Both the position numbers and the translations under genes were made by a program. This document shows, one piece after another, positions 15,794 to 26,469 of a stretch of 32,421 nt of DNA. Position 1 is the stretch's first letter, and every line of letters begins with the position of its first letter. This stretch comes from an uncultured Enterobacterales bacterium (lineage in GTDB: Bacteria > Pseudomonadota > Gammaproteobacteria > Enterobacterales > Psychrobiaceae): the NCBI GenBank assembly GCA_937981905.1, contig CALJMY010000255.1, positions 1 through 32,421 of the forward strand, read 5' to 3'. Under the pieces are notes generated by a model that saw only the letters and a program-made list of their open reading frames with translations, did no database searches and had not been told where the DNA came from.

Positions 15794-17674
15794 TTATTTA
15801 TCTTTTGAAAATTGTAATTGTGTGAATGTTTTGACATTGTTTCTACCAGATTCTTTTGCGAAATAAAGGGCTTTATCTGCTTGATCAAATAATTGAGAAT
15901 CGCTTGTAGTGTGATCAATCATTAATGTAGATACACCTACGCTAACGGTCACTTTTAATTCTACATTATCCGTTTTAATTAACTTGTCACCAATATTATT
16001 CCTAATCAGCTCAGCTATTTTTACTGCGCCTTTTTCGTCAGTATTAGATAATAAAATAGCGAATTCTTCACCACCAAAACGACATACATAATCGTTTGGA
16101 CGCTTTAATGCCTTGCTAGCTATTTTACTTATATCGATTAAAACTTTATCACCTGCTAAATGGCCATGATTATCATTAACTAATTTAAATTTATCGGCAT
16201 CTAATATAAGTAAAGAAATAGGAGTGTGTTGACGTCTACTTAATCTATATTCTGCTTTTAAGCGTTCATCGAAAAATTTTCTATTTTTTACACCAGTTAA
16301 TGCATCGTTCGTCGCTTGTTCTTGAAGTTTTTTATTGGTTTCTTGTAATTCTCGTAAAGTTACATTTAATTCAAATGTCCTATCACCAACCAAAGCTTCC
16401 ATATCTAATTGTTCTTGTTCACTCGTTAATATTAATGCTTCTGCAGCGGCTGATTTTTCTGTTAGTTCCTCAATTACATTATTAGCATTTACTATGCTTT
16501 CTTCTTTGTCTTTAATAAATTGATTCAAAATAAGCGCTCCCCATAATAAAAACTGAAGGCAATAGACGAAGGTTGCAGATGTGAGAAGATCTAAATGTAA
16601 AGGCAGAATACCACTGAGATGTACTGCTTTTATTGCAAATGAAACAATAAAAGTAGCCCATGTTACTAATAATAAAATAGGAACCGTTTTAGATTTTACT
16701 GTCAGTATTGTTAAAGTTGATAATATAATGATTAATGAAATGCATACAATAATTATAGAGGTAATAATCGCAATAAAAGACGGCAGAGCAAATAACACAA
16801 GAGTAATAATAAGAACGGATCTTGAAAGCCATAAGAATATATTTTCGATAATATAATAATTAGCTAAAAGCTTAGTAATCAAGCATCTTGTTAATTGAAT
16901 AGAGCACCATAGCGTTAATAATAAAATAATAGGTGATATTAAATTCTGTAACCAGGGGAAGCTTGGCCATATATATATTGAGGAAACGCCTTCAGAATTT
17001 AAAACACTAAGTGCACCAAAAATTACCAGCCCAATATAATATTGAATAAATGACGTTTTTTCATAGTTATAAACAATCAAAGCTCCCATCAGTAAACTTA
17101 TAATTAAGCCTAAAACTACGCCAATTAAAATGCCATGATTACTAACAGTTTCCAAACTTTCTTTACTATTTGTAATGGCAAGAGGAAGTGCTGAAGCGGC
17201 TTCGTCACGATATTGAATATAAATTTCCAATGTTTGTGATTCATTATTAGGAAGTGGAAAGTAAAATATTGGTGTTTCAATAGGTCGTTTACTTGTTTCA
17301 ACAATGTTACCTGCTAAATATTTACGTGATTGGCCTCCTTTAAATAAATAGACTTCAAGATAATCAATAATTGGATTTGCAATTTCTAAGTATAATCCAT
17401 CCGATGTTGAAAACTTAGAAGGGACCTGTACGGTGAGGTGAAGCCAGTAGTTACGATTTACTAGACCGTAAGAGTTGAAGCTTGATGCTGGAATCCATTC
17501 ATGCGATTTTAGTTTTCTAATTTGTTCTATACTATTGCTTCGTTCATCATTAGAGAAATATTCAAAAGTTGTAGAGTCGGCATCAATAACGTGTCTGACA
17601 TTATCATTATTATTGGCGAAGGCATTGAACACACTGAAAAATACTAATGTGATTAATAATATACTTCTTAGCAT
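15794..17674 (-). CDS. 7TMR-DISM diguanylate cyclase
   Basis: Protein of 626 residues. It has a signal peptide (1-20, cleavage likely after AFA), an extracellular beta-rich sensor of the 7TMR-DISMED2 type (about 30-170), seven hydrophobic spans (about 180-388, 7TMR-DISM type), a coiled coil (about 390-455) and a GGDEF domain (about 457-618). The active site is GGEEF (534-538), with the metal/nucleotide motif DADKFKLVNDNHGH at 492-505. RPND (525-528) is a product-inhibition I-site at the standard five-residue spacing. It should make c-di-GMP at the inner membrane in response to an unknown periplasmic, possibly carbohydrate, ligand. Its start overlaps the end of tatD by seven bases. Confidence 0.92.
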   Translation of the reverse strand: MLRSILLITLVFFSVFNAFANNNDNVRHVIDADSTTFEYFSNDERSNSIEQIRKLKSHEWIPASSFNSYGLVNRNYWLHLTVQVPSKFSTSDGLYLEIANPIIDYLEVYLFKGGQSRKYLAGNIVETSKRPIETPIFYFPLPNNESQTLEIYIQYRDEAASALPLAITNSKESLETVSNHGILIGVVLGLIISLLMGALIVYNYEKTSFIQYYIGLVIFGALSVLNSEGVSSIYIWPSFPWLQNLISPIILLLTLWCSIQLTRCLITKLLANYYIIENIFLWLSRSVLIITLVLFALPSFIAIITSIIIVCISLIIILSTLTILTVKSKTVPILLLVTWATFIVSFAIKAVHLSGILPLHLDLLTSATFVYCLQFLLWGALILNQFIKDKEESIVNANNVIEELTEKSAAAEALILTSEQEQLDMEALVGDRTFELNVTLRELQETNKKLQEQATNDALTGVKNRKFFDERLKAEYRLSRRQHTPISLLILDADKFKLVNDNHGHLAGDKVLIDISKIASKALKRPNDYVCRFGGEEFAILLSNTDEKGAVKIAELIRNNIGDKLIKTDNVELKVTVSVGVSTLMIDHTTSDSQLFDQADKALYFAKESGRNNVKTFTQLQFSKDK

Positions 17675-23537: not shown

Positions 23538-25250
23538 CTAACCAAATTGTTGTACCAACACCGTGATTAACAATATAAAGCTAACAGCTTGCCAAAAAGC
23601 AACTGGATCACGTTGAATTAAAGGAGGACGATTACGTGTTTCAAAAGCTTTATTAGGACGGCGTAAATCAGTCATAAATTCAGACAACACGCTATGGCGC
23701 TTTAGAGGTTCTACGCTTAATGCTTTTTGTAATGCATCATCAACCCATAAAGGAAGTTCGGAATCGTCATCTATTAAACTTTGATACTTAAGTTTACGCT
23801 GAGCTGAAATACTCTTAGCTTGTGTTATTTTAACGCCATAAGGAAACTTACCAGAAAGCATTTGATAAGTTATTACCGCTAGAGAATAAATGTCTGATTG
23901 TGGCGTACCTGATTGCCCTAAGAAATATTCAGGCGCTGAATAACGCATAGTTCCACGCAGATTGTCTTGAGTATCGGTATTACTATCATTGACGCCTGCA
24001 ATATGTGTAGATCCAAAATCGATAATTTTCACCACATTTGACGAATCTATCATGATATTTTCGGGTCTTAAGTCTTGATGAATCATTTCTTGGCGATGAA
24101 ATGCCTGTAACCCTTTTGCTATCTGTTCAATAATATCTCGAACGAGTTCTAGTTTAGGCGCTGGGTTGTCAATAATCCATTGAGTAAGCGTGCATCCTTC
24201 AATATATTCAGTCACTAAATATAAATACTTACGTTGATTTTTGGGTAATACAGCAATGGCTACATGTGGATTTTTAATACGTTTACCAATCCATTCTTCC
24301 AGCATAAACCGTTCAAGATATACGGGATCGGTAGATAACTCAGTTGATGGCACTTTTATAACAACTTTTTGGTCTGTGTCATTATCTTTAGCTAAATACA
24401 CATGACTACGACTACTAATATAAATCTCGCGTAATATTTCATAGTTATCTATATTCATTCTAGGAGACAATCTAGGCGGTAAAGGCAGGTTTGTTAGCTC
24501 GTTTATTTCACCTAATTGATATTGTGCAATATTATTAATACGAACAAGTTGGATACTTAAGTTGTCATCACTACCAAGTTCTAGCGCTCTTGATATAAGC
24601 GTACTGGCAGCTTTATTTAAAGAAGGACTTTCATTAATTGTTTGTATCATTTCTTGTTCAGTAATAAATTCATAAACACCATCAGTGGCTAGAATATAAA
24701 TATCATCGGATACCAATTTTTTACCTTGATAATCCAAAGTAACATGAGGATGAATACCTAAAGCATGAGTTAAATAGCTTTTTTCTGGTGAAACAACACG
24801 GCGATGATCTTGTGTTAATTGCTCTAATTTATCTCCTGAAAGTTGATAAACTCGAGTGTCACCCGTATGAAAAACATGTGCTGTATTTGATTTCAACACA
24901 AGAGCACTAAAAGTACATACATAACCTTTATCTTTGTCAAAACGATAAGCGCTATTATAGGTTTGAGAATATAACCAAGAGTTAATAGCCTGAGCTACTT
25001 TTTCTACTGAATTTTGAACTGACCATGCACTAGACGTACAGTAATAATCATCTAAAAAACTAGAAACAGCCGATTCACTAGCTATTTGGCTTACGTCACT
25101 TGAACTAATACCATCAGCCATAACTAGCACGATGCCCTTATTACTTAATAAAGGTTCTTTAGGAATTGAGCTGCCAATAAAGTCTTGATTAATAGATTTT
25201 AAGCCTTTATCAGTAGCGCCGCCAATAGTGACATTTAACGGTAAACTCAT
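23538..25250 (-). CDS. Membrane-anchored PP2C phosphatase / Ser-Thr protein kinase fusion
   Basis: Protein of 570 residues with opposing activities. The PP2C phosphatase (about 8-240) keeps its metal aspartates: NQD (23), ADG (46), GDTRVY (131), TDG (190) and DN (229). The kinase domain (about 270-530) keeps Lys299 (VVIKV), HQDLRPEN (391-398), DFG (411-413) and APE (439-441), but its glycine-rich loop is replaced by EIYISSRSHVYLA with no glycine. A single membrane helix is at 552-568, so both domains face the cytoplasm. It is downstream of a formate/nitrite-type channel gene, a pairing I recall from nitrate-assimilation loci of marine gammaproteobacteria. Its substrates are unknown. Confidence 0.9.
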   Translation of the reverse strand: MSLPLNVTIGGATDKGLKSINQDFIGSSIPKEPLLSNKGIVLVMADGISSSDVSQIASESAVSSFLDDYYCTSSAWSVQNSVEKVAQAINSWLYSQTYNSAYRFDKDKGYVCTFSALVLKSNTAHVFHTGDTRVYQLSGDKLEQLTQDHRRVVSPEKSYLTHALGIHPHVTLDYQGKKLVSDDIYILATDGVYEFITEQEMIQTINESPSLNKAASTLISRALELGSDDNLSIQLVRINNIAQYQLGEINELTNLPLPPRLSPRMNIDNYEILREIYISSRSHVYLAKDNDTDQKVVIKVPSTELSTDPVYLERFMLEEWIGKRIKNPHVAIAVLPKNQRKYLYLVTEYIEGCTLTQWIIDNPAPKLELVRDIIEQIAKGLQAFHRQEMIHQDLRPENIMIDSSNVVKIIDFGSTHIAGVNDSNTDTQDNLRGTMRYSAPEYFLGQSGTPQSDIYSLAVITYQMLSGKFPYGVKITQAKSISAQRKLKYQSLIDDDSELPLWVDDALQKALSVEPLKRHSVLSEFMTDLRRPNKAFETRNRPPLIQRDPVAFWQAVSFILLITVLVQQFG

Positions 25251-25290
25251 TATTAATTCCTTGTGTTATTTATAACGTTATAGATAAAAC

Positions 25291-25322
25291 TAAGGCCTCA
25301 TAATCATCATTACGAAGCCTTA
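25291..25322 (-). terminator. Hairpin between channel gene and kinase gene
   Basis: A 32-base imperfect palindrome: TAAGGC/GCCTTA outside, then TC/GA and TAAT/ATTA, with two single mismatches. On the - strand it is followed only by GTTTTATC, a weak T tract. It probably reduces rather than blocks read-through from the channel gene into the kinase gene. Confidence 0.5.
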
Positions 25323-25382
25323 ATATCTTAGCATTAGTATATTAAAATTAGCCTTTAATATATGTCTTCTAAAAGTGACTTA

Positions 25383-26195
25383 TCACCCAATTTTTCTATT
25401 TGGTGATGTTTTAACATGTGTTAAATACAACGGTAAACCTACTAATAATAAGCCACCCGTTAAATTACCTAATACTGTTGGAATTTCATTCCAGATTAAG
25501 TAATCATAAACCGTAAAATCACCACCCATAATCATTGAGAATGGGAATAAAAACATATTAACAATTGAATGCTCAAAGCCCATGAAGAAGAACAACATAA
25601 CAGGCATCCACATTGCGGCCATTTTAGCGCCTGCAGAAGTAGAAATCATAGCACCAACAACACCCATAGAAACCATCCAGTTACATAGCATGCCGCGAAT
25701 AAATATAGTAAACCAACCACCTAAACCATGCTCTTGATAACCTAACGTTCTTGATTCACCAATAGATGCTACTTTAGCAGCGATAGCGCCACCTTCAGTT
25801 GCATAACCATAAGTTAGAATAAATGACATAAAGAATGCGGTAGTCATTGCACCAATGAAATTACCGATAAAAACAAGTCCCCAATTGCGCATCACTCCAC
25901 CAAAAGTAACACCCGGACGTTTGTCTAATAAAGCTAATGGCACAAGTGTGAATACACCTGTCAATAGATCAAATTTCATCAAATAAAGCATGATGAAACC
26001 AACAGGGAATAAACAAGCGCCTAAAATAGGACTGCCGGTTTTAGTTGCCACCGTAATTGCAAAAACAGCCGCTAATCCTAAAATAGCACCAGCCATAATC
26101 GCGCGTATAAGGGTATCTTTAGTCGACATGTAAACTTTTTGTTCACCTGAATCGACCATTTTTGTGACGAATTCACTAGGTTCTATATAAGCCAT
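25383..26195 (-). CDS. Formate/nitrite transporter family channel
   Basis: Protein of 270 residues of the FNT (FocA/NirC) family, a pentameric inner-membrane channel for small monovalent anions such as formate or nitrite. Six membrane spans are visible. The family motifs LVFIGNFIGA (third span region) and GFEHSIVNMFLFP, with the central-pore histidine, are intact. It could be NirC-like or FocA-like; the sequence alone does not tell me. On the - strand AGGATAATTAATG provides a ribosome-binding site. The kinase-phosphatase gene follows after a 132-base gap. Confidence 0.9.
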   Translation of the reverse strand: MAYIEPSEFVTKMVDSGEQKVYMSTKDTLIRAIMAGAILGLAAVFAITVATKTGSPILGACLFPVGFIMLYLMKFDLLTGVFTLVPLALLDKRPGVTFGGVMRNWGLVFIGNFIGAMTTAFFMSFILTYGYATEGGAIAAKVASIGESRTLGYQEHGLGGWFTIFIRGMLCNWMVSMGVVGAMISTSAGAKMAAMWMPVMLFFFMGFEHSIVNMFLFPFSMIMGGDFTVYDYLIWNEIPTVLGNLTGGLLLVGLPLYLTHVKTSPNRKIG

Positions 26196-26231: not shown

Positions 26232-26469
26232 AGTAACTAATTAAGAGCAAAGAGAGTGCCATAGTTTTTAGCTTTAAATTTGAATGTTTATCTCGTTGTT
26301 TTTTAATAGTTAAATTTTAACCAATTAAAGCTGCCCGATAGAAAACTGATATGAATATGACATAGTGATATTTATTGGGTGAATAATTGCACCAATAAAG
26401 AGCATTTAGTGATGAGGAATCAGAGGGTTTAAATAAAATATTACAAACTTATGGATAGCTTTAAAATGG

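Follow-up and report, generated by a model that had tools for sequence, protein, structure and literature searches.

Channels of the formate/nitrite transporter (FNT) family have been proposed to carry cyanate in nitrifiers, where, according to the passages of PMC10753782 that treat them (citing Spang 2012 and Palatinszky 2015), the FNT gene of Nitrososphaera gargensis and Nitrospira adjoins cyanase (cynS). Cyanate and nitrite are nitrogen nutrients that are poisonous in excess, so that an always-open channel is dangerous to the cell. Unregulated nitrite uptake through an FNT is lethal, and how FNT channels are restrained in bacteria is an open question for which a reversible mechanism has been argued to be necessary (PMC4390861). 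Cyanobacteria shut down cyanate/nitrite uptake by ABC transporter post-translationally, in response to ammonium and through PII (PMC4390861). Here we describe a locus on contig CALJMY010000255.1 of an uncultured Enterobacterales bacterium (Psychrobiaceae), the whole 32,421 nucleotides of which we call the window. It carries an FNT gene and, 132 bp away on the same strand, a gene for a PP2C phosphatase fused to a Ser/Thr kinase (hereafter KP); gene coordinates and Pfam matches agree with this arrangement as described in an earlier note made from the sequence. Our favoured reading, which falls a little short of probable, is that of a nitrogen-controlled channel, most likely for cyanate and possibly also for nitrite, that is gated by a dedicated, tail-anchored KP.

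By comparing the positions of KP, cynS and FNT in 295 genomes of the order, with the FNT subfamily defined by at least 70% identity, we identified 44 FNT copies, of which 33 were next to KP and 27 next to cynS; 20 were next to both, 40 next to KP and/or cynS, and four next to neither. In a sister FNT subfamily (46–57% identity) of the same order, 0 of 50 copies were next to KP or cynS, and the six that we inspected were all beside nirBD in nirBD operons, several of them then followed by cobA. A second sample of 331 genomes was drawn evenly from the class (FNT at least 56%, KP at least 49% identity). Here, KP adjoined 24 of 31 FNTs and FNT adjoined 24 of 28 KPs, with the remaining four KPs located at contig ends (two) or after the transporter gene NarK (two). 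The pairing is conserved far beyond chance, so that the outcome which the earlier note would have taken as refuting its proposal, a lack of such co-occurrence, is contradicted.

We also gathered eighty loci by KP similarity alone. In nearly all of them FNT and KP were neighbours; many also had cynS, on either side of the two genes or between them, and some had nirBD. The named relatives include Colwellia, Vibrio, Marinomonas, Paraglaciecola, Methylomonas, Stutzerimonas, Gallionella, Mariprofundaceae and Accumulibacter, among others. Across the loci read, 99 of 107 subfamily FNTs had an adjacent KP, whereas cynS was found within a few kb of 51 and nirBD of 11 (six further subfamily FNTs with nirBD turned up besides these), and KP is therefore the constant partner while the enzyme varies. 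The FNT-KP pair is kept in Gamma-, Beta- and Zetaproteobacteria and in one Campylobacterota metagenome-assembled genome at 53–71% KP identity. This conservation, together with the catalytic residues that are intact in all 99 FNT-linked KPs (see below), already contradicts the idea that drift or shared transfer put the genes side by side with no functional link, which we regard as extremely improbable. What speaks for it is that the window genome alone, among nine genomes of the genus, has either FNT or cynS, making a block transfer plausible; since the other eight have neither, acquisition by transfer is the probable origin of the module, unless those genomes lost it.

The phylogeny of KP follows the type of transporter. 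All FNT-linked KPs fall in a single clade (SH-aLRT 100), composed of 99 FNT-linked sequences and 11 others. Of these 11, six have an FNT that was missed by the gene caller, one is truncated where its contig stops, and the remaining four are genuine orphans. When the tree is taken together with the class sample, 105 FNT-linked KPs and one NarK-linked KP share this clade and 21 NarK-linked KPs lie outside it. Moreover, two loci (L162 and L173) contain both an FNT-KP and a NarK-KP pair in one cluster, and there each KP follows its own transporter and falls in its own clade. Signature positions separate the FNT type from the NarK type (H283 versus Q, R395 versus K), the second lying in the kinase catalytic loop (window 24057–24080, minus strand), which reads HQDLRPEN in FNT-linked and HQDLKPEN in NarK-linked KPs. 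The single NarK-linked member of the FNT clade (L197, genome G360), located after NarK and before nirB, is a probable partner switch.

A second KP is found in the window genome itself (G000; assembly 82.7% complete). It has 36% identity to the first, and the gene immediately preceding it encodes a NarK-like MFS transporter; the contig (G000:C87, L008:1-3868) begins with the end of a nirB gene. This is the nitrate counterpart of the FNT-KP pair in the window. The earlier note had assigned the pair to nitrate-assimilation loci. Such a pair does exist, as this contig illustrates, but what occurs there is mainly the sister KP group with NarK, the FNT-linked KPs being a clade of their own.

Both halves of KP keep their catalytic residues. 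The four metal-binding Asp of the PP2C domain and the kinase residues listed in Table 1, among them the alpha-C Glu E318 and the DFG Asp D411, are kept in 99 of 99 FNT-linked KPs, indicating that both opposing activities are under selection. The structure model (pLDDT 85.9) ends in a helix that coincides with the only strongly hydrophobic segment of the window KP, in agreement with the single C-terminal tether that had been proposed for it, and a C-terminal hydrophobic 19-mer scoring above 1.6 is present in 122 of 124 KPs. By structure match, the closest folds to the kinase domain are PknA and PknB, and those to the PP2C domain are the bacterial PP2Cs 2pk0, PstP, PppA and tPphA. The kinase domain lacks the glycine-rich loop GxGxxG and has instead a conserved (S/A)SRSH stretch (SSRSH in the window) in which R281 and S282 are invariant. 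This replacement and the Arg in place of the usual catalytic-loop Lys are unusual among Ser/Thr kinases. No KP relative was found in the viral contigs searched.

Alternatively, the target of KP could be a different protein of nitrogen metabolism (an assimilation enzyme, a regulator or PII), and its place beside transporters would then reflect only co-regulation. The resemblance of its PP2C domain to tPphA, a cyanobacterial PP2C, is consistent with this, PphA being the PII phosphatase, as are KP family members beside nirB where no transporter was recognised (L209 and L210) and the four KP copies that have no adjacent FNT. We nevertheless consider such a target unlikely, as the KP phylogeny tracks the transporter type and not the neighbouring enzyme, two KPs of different clades in one cluster each follow their own transporter, and KP is membrane-anchored. 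The four orphans (L057, L058, L059 and L061) are intact and have no FNT beside them, with an FNT next to cynS elsewhere in each genome; they lend themselves naturally to testing whether KP can act in trans.

The window FNT matches PF01226 at 217.7 bits (cut-off 34.6) over domain positions 1–239 of 240 and carries the pore-histidine motif F-E-H-S-(I/V)-x-N-M-F as FEHSIVNMF, in which E208, H209 and S210 are near-invariant across 99 relatives and alignable with FocA and LCIA. It falls below the NCBIfam equivalog cut-offs for FocA (TIGR04060, 131 of 290 bits) and NirC (NF008595, 47 of 293 bits) and should therefore not be named a formate or nitrite channel by family; it is also below the cut-off of the general fnt model (TIGR00790, 143 of 232 bits). 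Nitrite or formate had been put forward in the earlier note, and neither survives as the leading candidate: 27 of 44 copies of the subfamily are linked to cynS compared to none of 50 in the sister subfamily, and linkage is mainly to cyanase, less often to nirBD and rarely to formate genes. Cyanate is further favoured by the ABC transporter that occupies the place of FNT in both of two cynS loci without FNT that we examined, and by the proposals already made for nitrifier FNTs (PMC10753782). Formate is the least likely substrate. At L092:2344-7055 a subfamily FNT without KP or cynS is divergent from a putative formate dehydrogenase operon, identified by eye.

Because some members of the subfamily sit with nirBD, we also weighed a NirC-like nitrite channel with KP gating nitrite entry, in which case cyanase would be of secondary importance within a general nitrogen cluster. 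Gene order nirBD-FNT-KP occurs in Stutzerimonas/Pseudomonas, FNT-KP lies near nirBD elsewhere, and the sister FNT subfamily is in nirBD operons; NitM, a nitrite FNT, needs restraint because its excess uptake is lethal (PMC4390861). Yet in the loci read cynS outnumbers nirBD as given above, KP and cynS never adjoin members of the sister subfamily, and the PAS/sigma-54 activator that is divergent from several cynS-FNT-KP clusters in relatives resembles CynF of the cyanate cluster cynFABDS (PMC6627978). Nitrite as the main cargo is thus doubtful, though to be taken seriously. A further reading, that the channel supplies bicarbonate as the co-substrate of cyanase and does not carry cyanate, is entertained since the solved structure nearest to the window FNT by sequence (E=2e-24) is that of LCIA, a low-CO2-inducible algal FNT. 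Cyanase does consume bicarbonate. Roughly every second FNT-KP pair lacks a nearby cynS, however, nirBD linkage brings no need for bicarbonate, and the similarity to LCIA is distant within a broad family, making this reading very unlikely. We therefore retain cyanate as the most likely cargo.

Expression of the locus may respond to nitrogen. The window contains a single exact match to the sigma-54 promoter motif, where 0.02 would be expected; it is situated 66 bp ahead of the FNT start and on the correct strand. In relatives, similar sites were found before FNT in 28 of 83 leaders (0.3 expected) and before cynS in 10 of 20 (0.1 expected). The promoter, like the second FNT and the second KP of this genome, did not feature in the earlier note. 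The gap between FNT and KP forms a stem-loop of 16 pairs with a short T-rich tail, the T-tract being weaker in the window than in relatives, and folds at −29.9 kcal/mol (z=−3.9 compared to dinucleotide shuffles). A matching hairpin is found in six near relatives; in the seven sequences together, pairing extends to 95% of cells, a T-run follows the hairpin in most, and four pairs have changed on both sides, a covariation equalled by 1 in 500 shuffles. In a wider set, 56 of 69 FNT-KP gaps fold much better than mononucleotide shuffles, a weaker control than dinucleotide shuffling. We considered whether the attenuator could be a chance occurrence, since the number of such motifs is unremarkable (1 found, 1.5 expected), and rejected this; the stem is far stronger than in shuffles and covaries in near relatives, so that the hairpin, which the earlier note had pointed out, is kept as real. 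Its simplest reading is a leaky terminator that would lower KP relative to FNT.

We suggest the following sequence of events. Nitrogen limitation would switch on FNT from the sigma-54 promoter, and the hairpin would pass only part of transcription into KP, so that the channel may be made in excess over the enzyme. Its one C-terminal helix would hold KP at the membrane and leave both catalytic domains on the cytoplasmic side, on which the termini of FNT are also predicted to lie; KP could there phosphorylate and dephosphorylate the channel. Four cytoplasmic Ser/Thr that are kept in KP-linked FNTs (T11, S24, T28 and T263) are candidate sites, a lead rather than proof; T11 is Thr or Ser in 97 of 99 FNTs and Gln in six nirBD-linked sister FNTs. 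A comparison of FNTs with and without KP for a KP-specific phosphosite was not decisive, as T11 and K12 mark the subfamily and occur in copies without an adjacent KP too. The putative signal for closure is uptake that outruns cyanase, or plentiful ammonium, after which KP would return the channel to its presumed open state. In this respect a membrane-anchored kinase/phosphatase would do the same job as the ammonium/PII shut-off of cyanobacteria. Another FNT of the window genome, with 94% identity to the first, lies directly downstream of cynS (PF02560, E=4.5e-37), with no KP at that place (G000:C51, L007:5822-7130), and KP may therefore serve both channels. Three genomes (that of the window, G164 and G098) have this division in common, their cynS-FNT and FNT-KP pairs being found in separate places.

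Several observations weigh against a cyanate channel gated by KP. T11 and the other conserved Ser/Thr are present also in FNT copies that have no adjacent KP, and four genomes keep KP with no FNT beside it, though each has an FNT elsewhere. The correlation between FNT and KP distances is modest (r=0.29), above permutations and with no control for species. Cyanase was not detected in 8 of the 33 FNT-KP genomes of the order, nirBD-FNT-KP is the arrangement in Stutzerimonas and others, and one FNT without KP follows nirBD. Finally, NitM, a characterised cyanobacterial FNT for nitrite, was not inhibited by cyanate (PMC4390861).

The features of the locus are listed in Table 1. In the window, neither cynS nor a cynF-like gene is adjacent to the pair, which is flanked by ubiE downstream and a divergent rarD upstream; nor does it adjoin any gene for a nitrate transporter or for a reductase of nitrate or nitrite, as the earlier note had stated. 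Elsewhere, a 7TMR-DISM/GGDEF diguanylate cyclase gene (15794–17674, minus strand) lies between hemB and tatD in the gene string ubiEJB-tatBC-tatD-hemB, and near the contig end (28996–32377, plus strand) there is a gene for an EAL-domain protein and, after it, one for a GGDEF protein that has TPR-like repeats.

Table 1. Features of the FNT-KP locus, given as positions in the window
Feature	Position	Strand	Basis
Sigma-54 (−24/−12) promoter, TGGCAC-N5-TTGC	26247-26261	-	exact motif match
FNT-family anion channel, 270 aa, subfamily linked to cyanase and KP	25383-26195	-	PF01226, E=2e-64
Stem-loop between FNT and KP, terminator/attenuator-like	25289-25324	-	folding, covariation
KP, PP2C phosphatase and Ser/Thr kinase fusion with C-terminal membrane helix, 570 aa	23538-25250	-	Pfam/NCBIfam, structure model
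PP2C domain of KP, about residues 6-240	24531-25235	-	metal site D23, D46, D190, D229; PF13672/PF00481
Hanks-type kinase domain of KP, about residues 264-535	23646-24461	-	PF00069, E=1.5e-38; K299, E318, D393, N398, D411
C-terminal tail-anchor helix of KP, residues 549-569	23544-23606	-	structure model and hydrophobicity

All protein families found here are already known; the partner-specific pairing and the link to cyanase appear to be undescribed in the searchable literature. We found no paper that describes a PP2C-kinase fusion with FNT or NarK as its partner, which is weak evidence as most subscription journals lie outside the search. A kinase/phosphatase that is dedicated to a channel and kept with it across Pseudomonadota makes the question of FNT restraint directly testable and, if the proposal is true, would provide a natural substrate for a large family of bacterial kinases that lack known targets. 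More broadly, it is possible, rather than probable, that a tail-anchored kinase/phosphatase made as one chain is dedicated to every nitrogen-anion transporter (NarK for nitrate, FNT for cyanate/nitrite) and switches its partner through reversible phosphorylation. Such a design would be widespread in bacteria, and FNT would exemplify it as a cyanate channel gated by phosphorylation.

Compared to described systems, the locus combines familiar parts in a different way. For the cyanate FNTs of nitrifiers, the relevant passages of PMC10753782 mention no kinase or phosphatase, whereas in the loci studied here FNT keeps KP as its partner while cynS varies. Some of the relatives share the layout of the cynFABDS cluster of Pseudomonas pseudoalcaligenes (PMC6627978), with FNT where that cluster has cynABD; the cluster differs in using an ABC transporter and not a channel, and in having no kinase/phosphatase. 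In nitrate-assimilation loci, NarK is followed by a PP2C-kinase fusion with the same domain order and tail anchor, although the transporter is from another family and the KPs form separate groups. The PII-dependent shut-off of the cyanobacterial ABC transporters for nitrate/nitrite and cyanate/nitrite is likewise a post-translational control of toxic nitrogen-anion uptake, but cyanobacteria rely on PII, or on an inhibitory tail as in the C-terminal auto-inhibition of NitM, and not on a dedicated kinase/phosphatase (PMC4390861). Bacterial Stk/Stp pairs such as PknB/PstP and PrkC/PrpC, which provide the closest folds, also set a Hanks kinase against a PP2C; they are separate proteins, often with extracellular PASTA sensors, whereas KP is one chain that has no extracellular domain and is paired with a transporter. 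Plants control nitrate transporters by phosphorylation, and a design in which each transporter has its own KP would be the bacterial counterpart.
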